Shown here one piece after another: positions 5,267-41,827 of a stretch of 43,424 nt of DNA. How positions within the stretch are numbered: the stretch's first letter is position 1; every line of letters starts with the position of its first letter. A program made the translations under genes and the position numbers. The DNA comes from Candidatus Omnitrophota bacterium (GTDB lineage Bacteria > Omnitrophota > Gorgyraeia > Tantalellales > Tantalellaceae), in assembly GCA_016783605.1 (NCBI GenBank), contig JADHWG010000009.1:1-43424 (forward strand), given 5' to 3'. The notes beneath the pieces are model-generated. The model was not told the origin of the DNA, searched no databases, and worked only from the letters and a program-made list of their open reading frames with translations.

Positions 5267-5345
5267 CACCAACCTCGCAGGTTTCAACCTACGAGGTTGG
5301 TGTTCGGTTTTTAACGATATACGACATACCATATACGACATACGA
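5265..5345. repeat. Family A inverted repeat followed by ACGATATACGACATAC direct repeats
   Basis: Positions 5265-5304 form an inverted repeat of 19 bp arms with one mismatch (CGCAGG instead of CGTAGG on the left) and outer arm AACACCA. Its left arm begins inside the end of the glycosyltransferase gene. Immediately after, 5306-5345 holds two tandem variants of ATATACGACATAC, the sequence that flanks the hairpin at 3844-3925. Confidence 0.8.
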
Positions 5346-14675: not shown

Positions 14676-14783
14676 GTGGAACGTATTGTGATGCGGGCAC
14701 ATGCAATGTGCCCCTACGGGTTGGCGGGGGTGTCCCACCAAAGTGATAATGTCCTATTTTAGAAACGTAGGTTTCAACCTACG
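14663..14783. repeat. Two family A hairpins flanking a family B palindrome
   Basis: TTCCACCT-CGT-AGGTGGAA at 14663-14681 starts inside the last codons of lipA. GGGCACATGCAATGTGCCCCTAC lies at 14695-14717. A second small family A copy, CGTAGGTT-TCA-AACCTACG-like, is at 14766-14783. All fall between lipA and the promoter of the giant gene. Confidence 0.8.
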
Positions 14784-14804
14784 AGGTTGTTTTAGGGGAT
14801 TTTG

Positions 14805-14923: not shown

Positions 14924-17900
14924 ATGAAAAAAAGAAGATATAATCCAATTTTAATGATAGCGAAGTGCGTGACGATGATGGTATTTTTTTCATTTTCACA
15001 AACTGCGGTTTCTTGGCCGGAGTCATGTTCGGGTATTTCGTCTCGGAATACTGTTCTTCAGGCACAGGGTATTTTGCAGGAAAATCGGGTTTTGGTCGAA
15101 TTAGAATTAATTAAGATGATGGCGTTGAAGAACTATACGTTTTCTGAAATAAACGCGGCATTGGATGAGTGTTATCATGAAAAAGGTACCAAGAGGAGTC
15201 TGTTACATATGACGCAGATTCCTAAAATTAACGGGAATAGCATGCAAATAGAAGTTAAATTTTTGCGAGGTACAAAAAAAGGAAGGACGATTAGATTAGT
15301 CTTGCCGTGTAAAGATTTAAAAAGGGTAGAAAATGGTCAAAATAATGTAAAAAGCGAGACTCGTAACGAAGACTATCTTGTCCATATAGGCGCGGAAATA
15401 AAAGATGGAAAACGAATTGGTGGGGAACTTATATCCGTGGGAGGTAATCGAAAAACTTTATACACGCTTATTATGGAATATCCTGATTGCGTTATAGAGA
15501 AAATGAGACTAAACAGTGAGGGAGGTTTTTCATTTAACAAGGAGAATTACTGGACGGTAATGGCAGGATATAAAAATGCTTTGGTTTTAGTAGAAGTAAT
15601 TAAAGGCCGGACAATGAGGGTTTATGATGAGAAGGGCAACAGGCTTTATCCCCCGGAGAAAAATCTTGTCTATATCAATGCTGAAATCACCGATGGCAAA
15701 AGGATTGGAGGTGAATTGATCGGCAGTGCTTTCACAACGGCAGAACTGAATAAAATAATTGCAGAACATTCTCATTGCGTTGTAGAAAGAATTAAATTAG
15801 GAATTAACGGGAGGTTTGGTTTTAATAATAAAGTTTATTGGCAGACAATGGCGGGATATAAAAATGTTTTAGTTACAGTGGAAGTCATAAACGGTCAGGC
15901 AGTGGGTGTGTATGATACACGTGGATTAAAACTATACCCTGCCAGTGAAAATCTTCTTTTTGTTGGAGGGAGAATCAAAGATGGGAAAAGAGTTGGCGGT
16001 GAATTCGTAAGCGGGACTTTGCATAAACTAGAATTAAATAAAATGATTAAAGCAAATCCTGACTGTATTATAGAGAAAGTCAGACTAACTAAACAGGGAG
16101 GGCTTAAGATCAATAAGATATGCTATTGGCAGACAATGCCGGGATATGAAAATGCTTTGGTTACAATTGTGATAGCTCAAGGTCGGGTAAAAGATGTGTA
16201 TGGTCCGCGAGGCGCTTGCATATATCCACTTAGTGAAAATTTTGTTTATGTTAACTCGCAAATCAAAGAAGGAAAAAGAGTTGGCGGTAAGTTTGTGGAA
16301 AGCAGGAGCAATAAAGACAGTCTTAATTGGCTGGTCAAAAAATATCCGAGTTGCATCATAGAAAAAGTAATATTGAATAAAAAAGGCGGGCTATTATTGA
16401 ACAGGAAATCCTATTGGTATTCAATGCCGGGATATGAGAATGCCCCGGTTACGATAGAAATGGCGGAGGCGGATGTAAAGAAAGTCTATGACAAGAAAGG
16501 AATTCAAATATATCCGTTTAACAAGAATCATGTTTATATTAATGCGAAAATTAAAAATGGGAGAAGAAGCGGTGGTGAGCTCACGAGAACTGCGGGTAGC
16601 AGAAAAATGTTAAATAAGCTAATTGAAAAATATCCTGATTGTGTTATAGAAAAAGTAAAATTAGACTGTGATGGTGGACTAACATTTAACAAACAATGTT
16701 ATTGGTCTATGCTGAAGTTTTATGAAAATGCTTTTGTTATGGTGAAGGTAGTAAATGCCTGGGTAATGGAGGTGTATGATGAGGGTGGTATACAATTATA
16801 TCCGTTTTGTGAAAACCAGATCTATATGAATGCGATAATTAGAAACGGGACAAAAGTTGGCGGTATTTTTATCGGCATTGCCTCTGACGAAAAACAATTA
16901 ATCCGGTTAATTAATGAATATCCCGATTGTGTTATAACAAAAGTAAAACTAAACGGCAGGGGAGGTTTTGAGTTCAATGGCAAGACTTATTGGAAAGAGA
17001 TGCCGGGACATGAAAACAGTTTTGTTACCATAGGTTTTAAAAAAGGTGAAATAACAGGAATATACGACGAACAAAGAAGCCGACTATATCCCGCGAAAAA
17101 AAGCCAGATTTATACTAACGCCGAGATTAAAAATGGGAAAAGGATTGGAGGTAACTTTGTCGGGGAAGTGGGTAATCAAAAAGAACTAAAGAGGATGTGC
17201 AATATATATTCCGATTGCGTAATAGAAAATTGGCAGCTTGGGATTTATGGCAGATTTCGTATTAACAAAGAACTTTTGTGGCACAGAAAAAAAGGATATG
17301 AAAATGCGAAACTTACAGTAGCAATAGTAGAGGGCAAGGTAACGCGAGTGTATGATAAACAAGGCGGATTAGTATATCCTTTTGAAAAAAACTGTGTTTT
17401 TACCGGCGCAATAATTAGAAGAGGAAAAAAGGTTAATGGCGAATTTGTGGGAAGCGCGGAGAACGCGGAAGAATTAGGTAAGATGGTCAAAAAATATCCG
17501 AATTCTATTATCGAAAAGGTTTCATTGGATTCGAAAGGTGGTTTTGAGTTTAATGGCAAGACTTATTGGAAAGAGATGAAAGGGTATGAGAATGTTCTTG
17601 TTACAATCGAGATCGTGAATGGAAACGTTACAAGTGTACATAACGAACAATGTGTTTGTTTGTATCCGGCTGATGAGAATCTTTTTTTTGTTAATGCCAC
17701 AATTGAACATGGAAAGATGATAAGTGGTGAATTTATAGCTAAAGGCAAAAGCAAACGTGAATGTTGTAAGCTTATCGCAGAATACCCCAACTGTGTTGTA
17801 AGTAAGAAGCGACTAAATCCCAAAGGTGGATTGATTTTTAATAGGAAGATTTATTGGCAAGGAATGAAGGGGTATGAAAATAGTTTAGTTTTAGTCGAGG

Positions 17901-20900
17901 TTAAGGATGGCGAGGTAATAGCGGTATATGATGAGGGTGGTAAAAGGATACATCCTTTTACGGAGAATTATATTTATGTCGATGCTGAAATCAAAAGTGG
18001 AAGAAGAGTTGGTGGAGAGTTTATCGGTACCGCTAATAACAAAAAAAAATTGAATTCAATTATATCAAAAAATACCGGCAAAAAGTTTGTTATAGAAAAG
18101 GTTAAGTTGGATCAAAAAGGTGGGTTGGAATTTTTCAAAAAAACTTGCTTTCGGGCATTGAAGGGGTATGAAAACGCTTATGTTACATTAGAATCAGAAA
18201 ACGGCAAGGTTATAAATCTTTATGATGAACAGGGAACATCATTATTTTTAAAAGATGAAAGCAAAGTTTATGTAAATGCGGAAATAATGAACGGTAAACG
18301 AATGGGAGGTGCATTTGTTGGCAGGGGGATTAACAGGAAACGTTTAGGTATACTCATCAACAGATATCCTGATTGTGTTGTAGAGGGGGTAAAGTTAGAC
18401 AATATTGGCAGTTTAAAACTTGATGGTAAATGTTACTGGAATGGATTGAAAGATTATGAAGGTGCTTTGATTACAATAGAGATAGCAAATGGAGAAGCAA
18501 TAGGCGCATATGATGAAAAAGGTAAACAAATATATCCGGCTAAAAGAAACATGGTTTATACTAATGCCGTTATTAAAGACGGGAAAAGGGTCGGCGGTGA
18601 ATTGGTGGATACGGCTATGACTGTAAACGGTTTGAACAGTGTTATTACAAGGTACCCGTATTGTATTGTAGAAAAGCTAAAACTTTCTAAGGAAGGTGGG
18701 TTAAGGCTTAACGGTAAATATTATTGGAAAAGCCTGTGTGAGCATAAAAACGCGATAGTAACAGCAAAAGTAGAAAATGGAGAGGTAATAGAGGTATATG
18801 ATGAAAAAGGAAAGCAAATATATCCGGCTAAGGAAAACATGGTTTATGTTAACGCAAGTATTAAAGACGGGAAAAGAGTGGGCGGTGAATTTATAAGTAG
18901 TCTCATGAATAAATCAGGTTTGAATAAGCTTATCCAAAAGTATCCCGACTGTATAGTAGACAAGTTAAGGGTTGATAGAAAAGGTGGGGTTTGTTTTAAC
19001 AATAAGTGGTATTGGCATGCGAAAAAAGGGTATGAAAATGCCTTTGTTACAGTGGAGATAGTGAATGGTGAACCGGTAGGCATATATGATGAACAAGGAA
19101 TCCAATTATTCGTGGAAAAAGAGGACCAGACGGCAAGGGGTATAAAAATTTATAATAAGCTGTGGGAGCAGGGGGATATAGAAAAACTTATGTCGCTTTT
19201 TGGAAGGGAAAGTTCTAATCGTATTCTTTTACGTTTTTTTGATTGTTTTACCCCTGAAAGTTTGCTTTATCTTTCAGAGCGGTTTCTGCATTCCTTACCA
19301 ATACGTCAGAAAAAAAGAATAATGAATAGAAAAAAATATGAAACAAATTCTGATAAAATTTTTGAGCAAATCGGCACAATAAAGATGTTCCAAGAAGAAA
19401 GAGAATGGACGGATCTTGAGATTCTTACGGATGAGCTGATAAAACTGGTCTATTCTCATGTTGCAAAAGATTACTTGTTTTTAGATAAATTAAAAAAACA
19501 GACTGCGTACAATGCTAAAGTCAGTTCTTTTTTAAAGAATGCCTATAGGAACACCATAAAACATTATGGACAACTGGGGGAATTTGTACCTGGCGGTATT
19601 CAAACAAGTACTCAACTCAAGTTTTATCAAAAGATGGGGATAAAATTTATTCTGGACAAAAAAAGAGTAATACTTGCGGATGAACCCGGGTTAGGGAAAA
19701 CAGTGCAAGCACTTGTTTCTGCTGTAAACGCTTATGGAGGAAGAGGCGCTAGAAAAGTACTTATCTTATGTCCGCGTATATCTAAAATTAATGTATGGGA
19801 AAAACAGATAAATGAGCATTTACGCGGAGAACAAGAAGTGATGATAATTAATAAGAGGAAAAGTTTGGATTCTTTGTATGGTAAGAATAAGGCAAAAAAG
19901 GCAAGGTTTATTATAGCTAATTGTGAGCTTATTAGAGGTCCCGGAGGCAAAAGGTTATTGGAAAACATAACAGATTTAGGAATAGATTTTCAAATTATTG
20001 ATGAAGCCCACAGAATGCGAAATGATTCTCAACTTGCAAAAGCAGTAATGGACTTGGATCCTGATAGTGATGTCCCTTATAAAGTCCTAATAACAGGAAC
20101 GCCTCTGGTAGGAAGGCGTCCTGCCAAGTTGTTTAATCTTTTCCACTTGCTGTATCCTGAAAGGTATTCAAATAAAAAGATGTTTAAGAAAAAGTGTGAT
20201 GGGAAGAATGGAGTTGTGTGGTTGAAGAATGAAATGAAATTTTTTGTGATACGACGATATTCCTCTGATGTTTTGATTAATTTGCCGGACTTGAACGTTG
20301 AGATAAGACCTGTAGACATGCCAAAAGAGCAGGCCGATTTATATCGTAAAATAGAAAAAAATATGATGCAGGATGAATATGTGCCGTTAGGTTTTCGGTT
20401 GGATTTATTGAAACGGGCGGCAACGGATACTCGACTTGTAAAAACCTTACTGTTTACTGATATCGAGACGGGGGAAAAGCAAGAGATGAAACCCGGGACG
20501 TATAGCATTGTTATAGGAGGGGTTCGTTATAGACTCAACATTAATGACAGTAAGAAAAAAATTGATATATCCTTATATCTCGAAAAAACAAACACAAAAG
20601 TTAGAAAACAAATGATTCATTATGGAGATACCACTATTCTGGGAGGGAAAAGATATAAAGTGGACGTAATAGAAAGACCTTCTTATTCGGCTAAATACGA
20701 TATGTTGGACGCTATTGTACAAGATGTCCTTAATGATAAACACGAGAAGCTGGTGATATTTACAAATATTGTAAAAGTGGTGCAAGATCTTAAACTGCGG
20801 TATGAAGGCAAAGGATATGAAGTGATGTGTATGCATGGAAAAGTTAGCACTGCCCAAAGGGAGAGCATAATAACGGAATTCAACAAATGCGAAAGGCCGA

Positions 20901-23557
20901 TAATCTTTATAAGCACTGCTCAAACCGGAGGTGAATCTATAGAATTATTTGGCGCTCATTATGGCGCGTCGCTGAATGAACCATGGACACACCAGGAGCG
21001 TGCGCAGAAGATTAGAAGACTATATCGGTTTGGACAAAAAGACGATGTTACTTTCTACATAATACAAGCACGAAGGACCATAGATGAAAGGATAGAAAGT
21101 ATTATAGCGCAAGGAGAGTTTTTAGAAAAAATTATTCTTGATGATCCTGACTGGACATACAACAGTCAAAGTGAAATAGCTGAAAAGATTTTAACGAAAA
21201 AAAAGGATTATGAAAAAGATCTTTTTGCTTTACAAGAGATTCAAAAAAAGACCAGATCTCAACAGAAAATGAACAGTAAAGAAGAAATTGAAGTGCCGTT
21301 TTTTGACAGTATAAAAAAAGGGTCCGAATTATTCATACAATACAAAGAAGGCGTATTCGAAAAAAGACTTCTGTTAGAGGACGGGACGGTAATAAAAGAG
21401 GCGAACATTTCTGAGATTTTAATAAATCTTGAAAAACTTTCTGATGATTCGAAGGAACTTTTAAAAGATTTTTTTATGCAAAGATTTGATTCAGAATGCC
21501 GAAAAAAGACAAAGGTTAAGGATATGATTTTGTGGTATGTTTGTACGGAATTGATCCCTGGATTTAAGGACATAGATTATCACGGAAGATTGGAATTAAT
21601 GATAGAGACAGGTACTTATGTGGTGCGAAAAATCATAGAGACTCATGATGTGGGGGAGGAGGAAATACGTGGTGAACTTGGAAATGTTTCCACGAAACTG
21701 TATGAGGACGCGATGTACTATCTGGATAGTGCTAACATATTGAAATTTTTTTCATACATAGGTCTGATACCTCAAACATATTATTATGAAGGAAAACTTC
21801 TTAAATATACTCCGCCTATCAAGGTATATTTCAGCCATGGGAACAAAGAGTATTCCGGTGAGAAAATCGTTCGCGGCGGCATACGGTATTATGATGAAAA
21901 AATAGTTGAGAATATAGCGCCTGAGTGGCGACGAAAAGAATCCGAAATTTCTTCCAGGATAACGGGGTTTAATCGGGATTCAGAAGGAACTAGAAAATTG
22001 AATCGTTCGGAAGAAATACGGTTAGCGCGCCAGTTAGAACTGGGAAACAAAGCGGCAGAGATTGTTTTGGTAGGGGCTTATTTAAGAGACGTTTTACCGG
22101 TCGCGAAAAAGCTAAAAAAAATGCTGTATTTCAGATTTGGATCCAAATTGGCAAACGCGGCGGAAATAGATGAAATCTGTGATGTTGGCAGAACTATACT
22201 GATGGATTTAGTGAAAAGATATGCTGAATTCGGAGCTTATGAAACTCAGCCGCTAAAAGACTATTTACAAAGCCGGCTTACCCCGAGAATGTATGGATGG
22301 GGATATAAAAGGATAAACGAAATTAAAGAGCTGACGGCTGACAACGGGGCATATGGAGGAAAGGATGATGAGGAGCCTACGCGAGTAGATCTGGAAAGGG
22401 AAGAAGCTGTAGCATCGGTTGCCGTAGCTGAAAAAGAAACTATGGATATTATGGAACAGTTACTTCAAACAAAAGGGTTTAATGATACAGAGATTCGCGT
22501 AATAGAATCATTTGTTTACGAAGGATACACAGAGCAGGAACTTATGGATTGGACAGATGAAAACAATTTCGGAGTGTTCGGAAAAGATGAGATTAAGGCA
22601 ATTATCAGCCGTTTCCAAAACTTCATAACGAATATGGGTAAAGCCCGGTTTAAAGATATATTGGAAAATGGTCTTGGATCAGATTTTGAGATAAAAAAGG
22701 ATCAAGTTTACAGCAAACAAAAACATATTAGTGATAAAAATCATGATGTTTTTTCTGTATTAAAAACTGGTTTGATGAATATGTCTTGTAAACATTCCAT
22801 AGATATCGTAGTAGACTTATCCTTAATGCCCGAGGGAGCATCGGACGCATTACACAAAAGCATTGATACCTGGGCGCATCTTATTTTATTATGCAAAGAT
22901 TTTGACAACGTAGATTTTATTTTTGAAGACACAGCCACTTTTGTTGAAGGAAAGGAATTGCCGTCTCATTTAGACGCCAAAGGAGGAACAGCAAAAAAAA
23001 GGATGGTATTAGAATCCCTAAGATCCGCGATACGGGATAAAGCAATATTTTTTGGAGAAGATAATGGAAGAGAAGAACTTATAGCAAATCGCGTTAGAGG
23101 ATGTCAAAACCGAGAGAGAAAAGAGACAAAAACAACTATTGAAATACCTATAATTTCTATAGAACTTGCGGAATGGATGAGGGATGAAGACATAAAATTA
23201 GAAGACAGGCAGTATCCGGTAGTAATGGAAACAGGCTTTTTAGGTTATGAGGATGGGATCGCAATAGGAGATTTTGAGTCCGCGTTAATGATCGGTTTGG
23301 CTAAAGCTTGTTTAGTGATAGCTAAAAATAAGAAACAAAGAATCCTCATCAAACTTGATGGTCTATATAGAGCGATTAGGCGAGAGGAAAATCACATAAT
23401 ACTTACTGATGAGCTTCTTGAATACATGATAGACGCAAGTTCAAGACACAGGTTAAATCGAGCCATAGATTTTTGCATACCGCCGATTACTTGTATGCCG
23501 GTTGATCAGATACAATATTCTCATGAGAACGCGCGAGAATTTCAGCTTAACATGTAA
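14924..23557 (+). CDS. Giant chimeric protein: 13 tandem repeats, SNF2-type ATPase, sigma-70-like segment
   Basis: 2,877 residues, signal-peptide-like at 1-30 (MKKRRYNPILMIAKC...SQTAVS). Residues 153-1402 are 13 tandem repeats of 96 residues (one of 98), starting V/IY-x-NA and ending YPAxEN. After a helical linker, a SNF2/SF2 helicase core spans about 1560-2090: Walker A GLGKT (K1592), DEAH (1693-1696), ITGTPL, and ISTAQTGG followed by RRLYRFGQK (R2035, motif VI). A small beta-rich insert sits at about 1844-1922. Residues about 2359-2575 resemble sigma-70 regions 1.2-2 and 4 in degenerate form. The C-terminal 250 residues may match the end of the 806-residue protein at 35605-38025. ATP-driven DNA translocation or remodelling is plausible, but a signal peptide on such a protein is odd. 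The gene is visibly more AT-rich than its neighbours, suggesting different history. Function unknown; all helicase motifs are intact. Confidence 0.9.
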   Translation: MKKRRYNPILMIAKCVTMMVFFSFSQTAVSWPESCSGISSRNTVLQAQGILQENRVLVELELIKMMALKNYTFSEINAALDECYHEKGTKRSLLHMTQIPKINGNSMQIEVKFLRGTKKGRTIRLVLPCKDLKRVENGQNNVKSETRNEDYLVHIGAEIKDGKRIGGELISVGGNRKTLYTLIMEYPDCVIEKMRLNSEGGFSFNKENYWTVMAGYKNALVLVEVIKGRTMRVYDEKGNRLYPPEKNLVYINAEITDGKRIGGELIGSAFTTAELNKIIAEHSHCVVERIKLGINGRFGFNNKVYWQTMAGYKNVLVTVEVINGQAVGVYDTRGLKLYPASENLLFVGGRIKDGKRVGGEFVSGTLHKLELNKMIKANPDCIIEKVRLTKQGGLKINKICYWQTMPGYENALVTIVIAQGRVKDVYGPRGACIYPLSENFVYVNSQIKEGKRVGGKFVESRSNKDSLNWLVKKYPSCIIEKVILNKKGGLLLNRKSYWYSMPGYENAPVTIEMAEADVKKVYDKKGIQIYPFNKNHVYINAKIKNGRRSGGELTRTAGSRKMLNKLIEKYPDCVIEKVKLDCDGGLTFNKQCYWSMLKFYENAFVMVKVVNAWVMEVYDEGGIQLYPFCENQIYMNAIIRNGTKVGGIFIGIASDEKQLIRLINEYPDCVITKVKLNGRGGFEFNGKTYWKEMPGHENSFVTIGFKKGEITGIYDEQRSRLYPAKKSQIYTNAEIKNGKRIGGNFVGEVGNQKELKRMCNIYSDCVIENWQLGIYGRFRINKELLWHRKKGYENAKLTVAIVEGKVTRVYDKQGGLVYPFEKNCVFTGAIIRRGKKVNGEFVGSAENAEELGKMVKKYPNSIIEKVSLDSKGGFEFNGKTYWKEMKGYENVLVTIEIVNGNVTSVHNEQCVCLYPADENLFFVNATIEHGKMISGEFIAKGKSKRECCKLIAEYPNCVVSKKRLNPKGGLIFNRKIYWQGMKGYENSLVLVEVKDGEVIAVYDEGGKRIHPFTENYIYVDAEIKSGRRVGGEFIGTANNKKKLNSIISKNTGKKFVIEKVKLDQKGGLEFFKKTCFRALKGYENAYVTLESENGKVINLYDEQGTSLFLKDESKVYVNAEIMNGKRMGGAFVGRGINRKRLGILINRYPDCVVEGVKLDNIGSLKLDGKCYWNGLKDYEGALITIEIANGEAIGAYDEKGKQIYPAKRNMVYTNAVIKDGKRVGGELVDTAMTVNGLNSVITRYPYCIVEKLKLSKEGGLRLNGKYYWKSLCEHKNAIVTAKVENGEVIEVYDEKGKQIYPAKENMVYVNASIKDGKRVGGEFISSLMNKSGLNKLIQKYPDCIVDKLRVDRKGGVCFNNKWYWHAKKGYENAFVTVEIVNGEPVGIYDEQGIQLFVEKEDQTARGIKIYNKLWEQGDIEKLMSLFGRESSNRILLRFFDCFTPESLLYLSERFLHSLPIRQKKRIMNRKKYETNSDKIFEQIGTIKMFQEEREWTDLEILTDELIKLVYSHVAKDYLFLDKLKKQTAYNAKVSSFLKNAYRNTIKHYGQLGEFVPGGIQTSTQLKFYQKMGIKFILDKKRVILADEPGLGKTVQALVSAVNAYGGRGARKVLILCPRISKINVWEKQINEHLRGEQEVMIINKRKSLDSLYGKNKAKKARFIIANCELIRGPGGKRLLENITDLGIDFQIIDEAHRMRNDSQLAKAVMDLDPDSDVPYKVLITGTPLVGRRPAKLFNLFHLLYPERYSNKKMFKKKCDGKNGVVWLKNEMKFFVIRRYSSDVLINLPDLNVEIRPVDMPKEQADLYRKIEKNMMQDEYVPLGFRLDLLKRAATDTRLVKTLLFTDIETGEKQEMKPGTYSIVIGGVRYRLNINDSKKKIDISLYLEKTNTKVRKQMIHYGDTTILGGKRYKVDVIERPSYSAKYDMLDAIVQDVLNDKHEKLVIFTNIVKVVQDLKLRYEGKGYEVMCMHGKVSTAQRESIITEFNKCERPIIFISTAQTGGESIELFGAHYGASLNEPWTHQERAQKIRRLYRFGQKDDVTFYIIQARRTIDERIESIIAQGEFLEKIILDDPDWTYNSQSEIAEKILTKKKDYEKDLFALQEIQKKTRSQQKMNSKEEIEVPFFDSIKKGSELFIQYKEGVFEKRLLLEDGTVIKEANISEILINLEKLSDDSKELLKDFFMQRFDSECRKKTKVKDMILWYVCTELIPGFKDIDYHGRLELMIETGTYVVRKIIETHDVGEEEIRGELGNVSTKLYEDAMYYLDSANILKFFSYIGLIPQTYYYEGKLLKYTPPIKVYFSHGNKEYSGEKIVRGGIRYYDEKIVENIAPEWRRKESEISSRITGFNRDSEGTRKLNRSEEIRLARQLELGNKAAEIVLVGAYLRDVLPVAKKLKKMLYFRFGSKLANAAEIDEICDVGRTILMDLVKRYAEFGAYETQPLKDYLQSRLTPRMYGWGYKRINEIKELTADNGAYGGKDDEEPTRVDLEREEAVASVAVAEKETMDIMEQLLQTKGFNDTEIRVIESFVYEGYTEQELMDWTDENNFGVFGKDEIKAIISRFQNFITNMGKARFKDILENGLGSDFEIKKDQVYSKQKHISDKNHDVFSVLKTGLMNMSCKHSIDIVVDLSLMPEGASDALHKSIDTWAHLILLCKDFDNVDFIFEDTATFVEGKELPSHLDAKGGTAKKRMVLESLRSAIRDKAIFFGEDNGREELIANRVRGCQNRERKETKTTIEIPIISIELAEWMRDEDIKLEDRQYPVVMETGFLGYEDGIAIGDFESALMIGLAKACLVIAKNKKQRILIKLDGLYRAIRREENHIILTDELLEYMIDASSRHRLNRAIDFCIPPITCMPVDQIQYSHENAREFQLNM
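15380..19129 (+). repeat. Thirteen tandem 288-bp coding repeats in the giant gene
   Basis: Twelve units encode 96 residues and the tenth encodes 98 (two-residue insertion before FVIEKVKL). The shared pattern is NAxIKDGKRVGGEF, then a helix ending YPDCVIEKVKL, then GGLxFNGKxYW, GYENxLVTVEIxNGEV and VYDExGxxIYP. Divergence is high at both protein and DNA level, except that units 6 and 8 share almost the same FEFNGKTYWKEM stretch and units 11-13 share KxIYPAKxNM. That points to old amplification with some later local exchange. Confidence 0.93.
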
Positions 23558-23565
23558 ATTGTTAC

Positions 23566-23614
23566 CCCCCACCGGTAACCTCGTAGGTTCAACCTACGAG
23601 GTTACCGGCGGGGG
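23566..23614. repeat. Family A inverted repeat abutting the gcvT promoter
   Basis: Arms of 24 bp with one mismatch surround a one-base loop at 23590. The outer arm, CCCCCACCGGTA on the left, is locus-specific. The last base is immediately before the TTGACA of the gcvT promoter. It could terminate the giant gene's transcript, whose stop codon is only 9 bp upstream. Confidence 0.88.
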
Positions 23615-23642
23615 TTGACAATGGGGGGATTTGTTTTATAAT
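23615..23642 (+). promoter_or_regulatory. Consensus promoter of the glycine cleavage operon
   Basis: TTGACA (23615-23620) and TATAAT (23637-23642) are both perfect sigma-70 hexamers at 16-bp spacing. Transcription should start near 23649, giving a leader of about 208 nt before gcvT. A perfect promoter ahead of a long structured leader suggests control after initiation. Confidence 0.85.
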
Positions 23643-28426: not shown

Positions 28427-28486
28427 TGTTAGAAGAACCCATCACTACCAACCTCGTAGGTTGGTAGTGATGGGTTCTTCTAACAC
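28427..28486. repeat. Long family A hairpin with CGT triloop
   Basis: The left arm (28427-28454, TGTTAGAAGAACCC...AACCT) and right arm (AGGTTGGTAGTG...CTAACA) pair over about 27 bp with a single bulged C, closing on the triplet CGT. A degenerate extra copy, CCTCGTAGATAGG, lies at 28401-28413. The element ends 5 bp before the GGGAGAGG ribosome site of the lipoate ligase gene. Confidence 0.85.
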
Positions 28487-41721: not shown

Positions 41722-41827
41722 CCTTTCGAAAACAACCTCGTAGGTTGAACCTCGTAGGTTCAACCTACGAGGTTGTTTTAGAAAGGGGAAAACGATTGAT
41801 GTCGATTCCACCTACGAGGTGGAATCG
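41722..41827. repeat. Two family A inverted repeats upstream of hppA
   Basis: The larger (41722-41787) has arms CCTTTC(G)AAAACAACCT and AGGTTGTTTT(A)GAAAGG around a core that contains an extra direct CCTCGTAGGTT copy. The smaller (41803-41827) is CGATTCCACCT-ACG-AGGTGGAATCG, a perfect 11-bp stem with an ACG triloop, the inverse of the usual CGT. Confidence 0.87.

Follow-up and report, generated by a model that had tools for sequence, protein, structure and literature searches.

A giant Omnitrophota protein that combines tandem repeats, an SNF2-type motor and a sigma-70-derived tail within end modules shared with unrelated payloads, and its possible role as an exported effector

SNF2/Swi2 ATPases, among them Chd1, ISWI and DDM1, the bacterial RapA and the defence proteins DpdE, ZorD and DrmD, are built on two lobes carrying motifs I to VI, and RapA binds and recycles RNA polymerase (PMC8501970). 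Sigma factors with additional domains have been described as well, namely ECF sigma factors in Planctomycetes (PMC8567305). Giant open reading frames (ORFs) are common in Omnitrophota and their relatives, and their functions are obscure; a survey of the phylum reports few annotated domains in them and a way of life that is probably predatory or parasitic (PMC10066038), and another study interprets gigantic mixed-domain proteins of Omnitrophota as effectors (PMC12419801). Polymorphic toxin systems (PMC3482391) are large exported proteins that join a constant trafficking part to exchangeable enzymatic payloads. Here, we describe a gene for a protein of 2,877 amino acids (aa) from a Candidatus Omnitrophota bacterium, located in a stretch of 43,424 nucleotides (contig JADHWG010000009.1 of assembly GCA_016783605.1, positions 1 to 43,424 of the forward strand; hereafter, the window). 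The protein touches on each of these systems, and we tentatively read it as an exported payload protein of modular build, probably an effector with an SNF2 motor that would act in another cell. No description of an SNF2-sigma pairing was found in the open-access literature (preprints lay outside this scope), in line with a preliminary description of the window, prepared from its letters, whose author knew of no such protein; the pairing is open to ATPase, DNA-binding and polymerase-binding assays.

The motor is the part of the protein most readily recognized. Pfam SNF2-rel_dom matches residues 1568-1813 with an E-value of 3e-33 and 115.6 bits (cut-off 24.9), and Helicase_C matches residues 1925-2037 with 3.8e-11 and 43.7 bits (cut-off 23.5). 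Motifs I, II, III, V and VI are intact in the window protein (GLGKT, DEAH, TGTP, TAQTGGES and RRLYRFGQ), and all of these except TAQTGGES had already been listed in the preliminary description. Because motifs I, II and VI are retained in six compared relatives despite identities of 25-42%, the motor is, as judged from its sequence, probably active. Both lobes and the motifs are those of known SNF2/Swi2 ATPases, from which the window protein differs in its preceding repeats, its sigma-like tail and its signal-like N-terminus. Its nearest PDB matches are Chd1 and ISWI (about 1e-17 to 1e-19), and in an NCBIfam scan of named bacterial SNF2 families it stays far under every cut-off. RapA is alike in being a bacterial SNF2 motor with a possible polymerase connection; the two are not orthologous. 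The RapA equivalog NF003426 gives 38 bits against a required 576, the Pfam scan of the window protein contains no RapA-specific domain, and a sigma-like tail stands in its place.

Scanned directly with Pfam, NCBIfam and PADLOC, this tail yielded no significant sigma match (Sigma70_r1_2, E=0.97). A profile was built from seven SNF2-fused C-termini from different genomes, with zero sigma factors included, and its top ten PDB matches are all sigma factors, including RpoS, with SigA 8x6f at E=2.5e-4. The same profile matches 258 of 384 genomes of the phylum, and among the matches listed, nearly all are sigma factors of ~280 aa, aligned at profile positions 165-230. When the tail was aligned by hhalign with sigma factors of the same class, the score was 77.4 (prob 96%, P=1.7e-9), as against a mean of 15.3 for column-shuffled controls (standard deviation 2.6, maximum 24.1) and 12.3 for the reversed control. 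The sub-regions are unequal in this respect. The sigma-70-like segment claimed in the preliminary description is firm for regions 1.2/2.1 (P about 1e-7 to 1e-8), and region 2.2 is collinear and weak alone, with values for it and region 4 spanning P 0.03-0.10; the region-4-like stretch, also proposed there, is likewise collinear and predicted to be helical (predicted local distance difference test, pLDDT, ~66-82), and weak when taken alone (P 0.05-0.07). Sigma region 3 is absent according to hhalign, and the conserved block that lies between the motor and the sigma-like part shows no sigma similarity by the same method and was modelled with low confidence. The structure model of the tail, which was made from a two-sequence alignment with a pLDDT of about 57-82 and is unusable over its first ~173 residues, has almost exclusively sigma factors or sigma complexes as its top-ranked matches; it fits the RpoS region 1.2-2 fragment 5h6x with a target template modelling (TM) score of 0.74 over 110 columns, and alignments with full-length sigma-S structures extend across it. 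On the evidence of profiles and predicted fold, the C-terminal segment is homologous to sigma-70, derived from regions 1.2-2 and probably also from region 4.

In the sigma factor of E. coli, residues D403, Q406, E407, N409 and M413 of region 2.2 contact the beta-prime clamp, and in true sigma factors the aromatic residues of region 2.3 melt the -10 element. Across the seven aligned relatives, N409 is kept in none, M413 and Q406 in one each, and E407 and D403 in two each (2/7); the D403 position holds Glu in three further relatives, and only the structural Gly408 is invariant. The alignment also bears out the earlier observation on the -10-melting aromatics, as the FSTYA.WWI of true sigmas has given way to residues such as PLKDYLQSR. 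Because these aromatics and most of the core-binding residues are lost, transcription initiation by the tail is unlikely, which agrees, as does the loss of region 3, with the suggestion that the protein does not initiate normally. The further suggestion that a sigma-like fold serves for docking on RNA polymerase found no support, the clamp contacts of region 2.2 being mostly not kept. The segment shares with RpoS and SigA the homologous regions 1.2-2, a similar predicted fold and probably a correctly placed region-4-like helix-turn-helix, and departs from them in the losses named above and in its attachment behind the SNF2 motor of a protein with a signal-like N-terminus.

The fusion itself, announced in the preliminary description as one giant ORF of repeats, SNF2 motor and sigma-like segment, is not peculiar to this genome. 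Our sampling covered genomes evenly, though not completely (1,448 genome searches), and within it all parts of the architecture reappear together in relatives that belong to several families, the order of repeats, SNF2 motor and sigma-like part being found in four genomes (G347, G116, G252 and G159; here and below, G, C and L denote genomes, contigs and loci), of which G252 has an ORF of 10,197 aa. Partial copies lie on cut contigs in G017, G335, G014 and G256, the copy in G335 consisting of motor and tail; that in G017, a genome of the same taxonomic family, is collinear with the window protein and 42% identical over motor and tail. A tree of motor and tail contains three strongly supported groups, namely the window protein with G017, G347 with G116, and G252 with G159 and G335. 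No relatives were found in viral contigs, and the single-protein contig search gave one locus, on the G347 contig. An SNF2 match in G003 was rejected as a relative, being an ordinary SNF2 protein; it adjoins an ORF that resembles, by eye, a SWIM zinc-finger protein. In two of the genomes the SNF2-sigma frame continues into other domains: DnaJ, alanine dehydrogenase, radical SAM and HEAT in G252:C56 (L019, L020), and an MTTB methyltransferase and a glycosyltransferase in G335:C261 (L021).

The repeats that precede the motor number 13, as previously counted, with a period of 96 residues in all but one unit, which has 98. Their pairwise identity is 31-54% (mean 42%), and all 13 units score 121-143 bits with a profile of the repeat set. 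They are predicted to be beta-rich with one helix per unit, and a two-unit AlphaFold model reached a pLDDT of 91; the fold in this model has no close or confident PDB match. Distant copies of the 96-aa repeat occur in ORFs of 2,486, 5,456 and 14,198 aa (L194, L195 and L196), and no SNF2 or sigma-like part is present in the stretches of these ORFs that were examined.

The ends of the protein place it in a wider set. A type I N-module and a type I C-module are combined in it with a signal-like N-terminus, and neither module has a significant Pfam or NCBIfam model. Profiles built without the window protein nevertheless match it, with domain E-values of 1.7e-11 for the N-module and 3.5e-51 for the C-module, its N-terminus beyond the signal-like stretch (within the first ~120 residues) and its last ~230 residues match the N- and C-termini, respectively, of large proteins from the same taxonomic family, in which 13 of 19 genomes have the C-module; the window genome itself encodes a second C-module protein, of 1,867 aa. 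Type I end modules surround unrelated middles, which include an SF1 helicase (L118), methyltransferases (L119), a cytidylate kinase (L117), an ABC1 kinase with M48 (L120), a GNAT acetyltransferase (L122), the dephospho-CoA kinase CoaE (L123) and B12/radical SAM (L153). A different frame, type II, seen around the payload in other taxonomic families, consists of an N-module of ~290 aa and a short C-terminal GGID motif. Within it lie the repeat-SNF2-sigma payload (G347, G116) and different payloads (L113, L114, L121), and four type II proteins follow one another on the G347 contig. Nothing speaks more clearly for modular exchange than the presence of one SNF2-sigma payload in both frames. Proteins with constant ends and swapped, putatively exported payloads look like an undescribed set, and once their recurring ends and interchangeable payloads were defined, many giant genes that are now anonymous would fall into a single family open to tests. 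The giant proteins of PMC10066038 and PMC12419801 are likewise encoded by ORFs of very large size, associated with a signal or with the membrane, and mix several enzyme domains; the accessible parts of both papers report domains of the adhesin, peptidase, methylase, kinase or lipocone kinds, and neither the SNF2-sigma payload nor the constant ends were found there. Polymorphic toxins share the combination of a constant part with exchangeable payloads, whereas in the window protein the payload is central rather than C-terminal, the payloads are not known toxin folds, and neither an adjacent immunity gene (the neighbours are lipA and gcvT) nor a known delivery domain was found; the accessible part of PMC3482391 names neither SNF2 nor a sigma factor.

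At the N-terminus, the n-region has a net charge of +4 and the h-region a mean hydropathy of 2.26, the relatives carry similar signal-like N-termini with a positive n-region, and a hydropathy scan of the whole protein revealed no further membrane-like segment. Because a positive n-region precedes the one hydrophobic stretch and no other such segment follows, the bulk of the giant protein is predicted to cross the membrane. In the reading that we favour, the constant ends (signal peptide with N-module, and the ~230-residue C-module) are reused in the lineage around different enzymes, and the middle is a conserved payload made up of a putative beta-repeat stalk or binding array, the SNF2 motor and the sigma-derived tail. 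The protein would leave its producer for a neighbouring or prey cell, whose cytoplasm offers ATP and DNA; there the motor would move along double-stranded DNA, removing or arresting complexes bound to it, and the tail would serve as a DNA or RNA-polymerase adaptor and not as an initiation factor. In the periplasm, a motor dependent on ATP and DNA would stand idle, so that export and the conservation of the ATPase are best reconciled by action inside another cell; many of the other end-module payloads also need cytoplasmic cofactors (ATP, S-adenosylmethionine, acetyl-CoA), which we count in its favour. The recurrence of the domain order in relatives, the two kinds of end modules, the accessory status of the gene and the published interpretation of giant Omnitrophota proteins as predation effectors (PMC12419801, PMC10066038) also favour it. 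That the lineage exports large proteins with constant ends and swappable middles, of which the SNF2-sigma payload acts on the DNA or transcription machinery of another cell, is a bolder and more doubtful form of the proposal; if it were true, this would be a secreted DNA-remodelling effector made from a transcription factor. Several points weigh against an exported effector. The signal peptide was judged solely from hydropathy and charge; we identified neither a secretion system nor a receptor, an immunity partner or a route of delivery, and Pfam and NCBIfam scans contained no delivery domain; no demonstrated case is known here of a DNA-motor protein of ~2,900 aa being exported into another cell; some payloads, such as metabolic kinases and CoaE, are not obvious toxins; and motif III is changed from TGTP to TASA or SASA in two type II relatives (L016, L018; G347, G116), with ASAQ replacing GTP, which may alter the coupling of their motor.

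The main rival is a membrane-tethered remodeler, similar to RapA or CSB, of the cell's own RNA polymerase, in which the sigma-like tail would recruit the motor to polymerase or promoter DNA and the hydrophobic N-terminus would act as a tether or be unused. An SNF2 motor and a sigma fold are a natural polymerase-directed pair, RapA shows that an SNF2 ATPase can bind and recycle polymerase (PMC8501970), and a planctomycete RapA-type SNF2 protein occurs in a membrane-associated fraction (PMC8567305). We nevertheless hold this explanation to be rather unlikely: positive charges ahead of the hydrophobic stretch predict that the remainder crosses the membrane, most core-binding residues of region 2.2 are lost, the RapA profile falls far below its cut-off, and few genomes of the class carry the gene; the end modules, common to unrelated payloads, together with the signal-like N-terminus lower the likelihood that the protein takes part in transcription in its own cell. 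An initiating sigma factor of unusual form, whose motor would help to open promoters, would account for regions 1.2-2, and probably 4, standing in the correct order, and complete sigma domains do occur in other large ORFs of the phylum; with the region 2.3 aromatics, the region 2.2 core-binding residues and region 3 all missing, we consider it very improbable.

A further alternative is a structural role at the cell surface, as an adhesin or a scaffold, with the ancestral activity of the SNF2 and sigma-derived parts lost. The 13 beta-rich repeats, the signal-like N-terminus and the shared terminal modules would also suit such a role, and giant surface proteins are common in Omnitrophota (PMC10066038). 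The retention of motifs I, II and VI at such low identities argues for selection on catalysis, and this alternative seems to us improbable. An assembly error or a chance fusion of separate genes might be suspected in a 72-contig assembly with a long repeat array inside the gene; a collinear, 42% identical relative in a different genome, the full architecture in several more and a guanine-plus-cytosine (GC) content that is uniform within the gene except for its last few hundred bases leave this next to no likelihood, and mis-assembly was rejected on account of the relatives with the same architecture.

Table 1. Coordinates in the window of the giant gene, its parts and the adjoining repeat copies
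Feature	Position	Strand	Basis or remark
Gene, 2,877-aa protein	14924..23557	+	single unbroken ORF; architecture recurs in independent genomes
Signal-peptide-like N-terminus (MKKRRYNPILMIAKCVTMMVFFSFSQTAVSW)	14924..15016	+	hydropathy and charge
Type I N-module, residues ~43-123	15050..15292	+	common to large proteins with other payloads
13 tandem repeats, residues 147-1396	15362..19111	+	period 96 aa, one unit 98
SNF2-family ATPase, residues 1568-2037	19625..21034	+	Pfam; ~110-residue insert between RecA-like lobes
Conserved block between motor and sigma-like part, residues 2160-2335	21401..21928	+	in all relatives
Sigma-70 regions 1.2 to 2-like segment, residues 2340-2465	21941..22318	+	profile, hhalign, model
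Region-4-like helix-turn-helix segment, residues 2495-2585	22406..22678	+	weaker evidence
Type I C-module, residues ~2646-2872	22859..23539	+	common to large proteins with other payloads
Dispersed palindromic repeat copy AACCTACGAGGTT	14776..14788	+	upstream of giant gene
Inverted pair of dispersed repeat AACCTACGAGGTT	23577..23603	.	just downstream of giant gene

Insertion of the giant gene, 8.6 kb long, has parted lipA and gcvT in the window; eight relatives have the two genes side by side. Its GC content is 36.8%, compared with 44.4% in the remainder of the window. Because the tail is carried by 8 of 384 sampled genomes of the class (~2%), the site is empty in the eight relatives and the GC content is low, the gene is accessory.

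Sigma domains were also seen in other large ORFs. A 5,044-aa ORF (G349:C20, L089) has significant matches to sigma-70 regions 1.2, 2, 3 and 4, and a sigma factor with TPR-like repeats stands behind a signal-like N-terminus in G010:C29 (L091, 4226-7027). Region 4 is present in a 2,966-aa ORF (G115:C63, L090), and a weak region 2 in one of 5,897 aa (G420:C14, L087).

The dispersed repeat AACCTACGAGGTT has 219 copies in the genome, as against 0 in the reversed control, with frequent inverted pairs; within the window it lies at 5271-5298, 14776-14788, 23577-23603, 28450-28462 and 41734-41774. A second dispersed repeat, GGGCACATGCAATGTGCCCCTAC, has four copies in the window, at 2598, 6129, 14695 and 29763. 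Between the giant gene and gcvT, at 23615-23642, there is a perfect promoter-like site of the form TTGACA-16-TATAAT, which overlaps an inverted repeat of 32 nucleotides.
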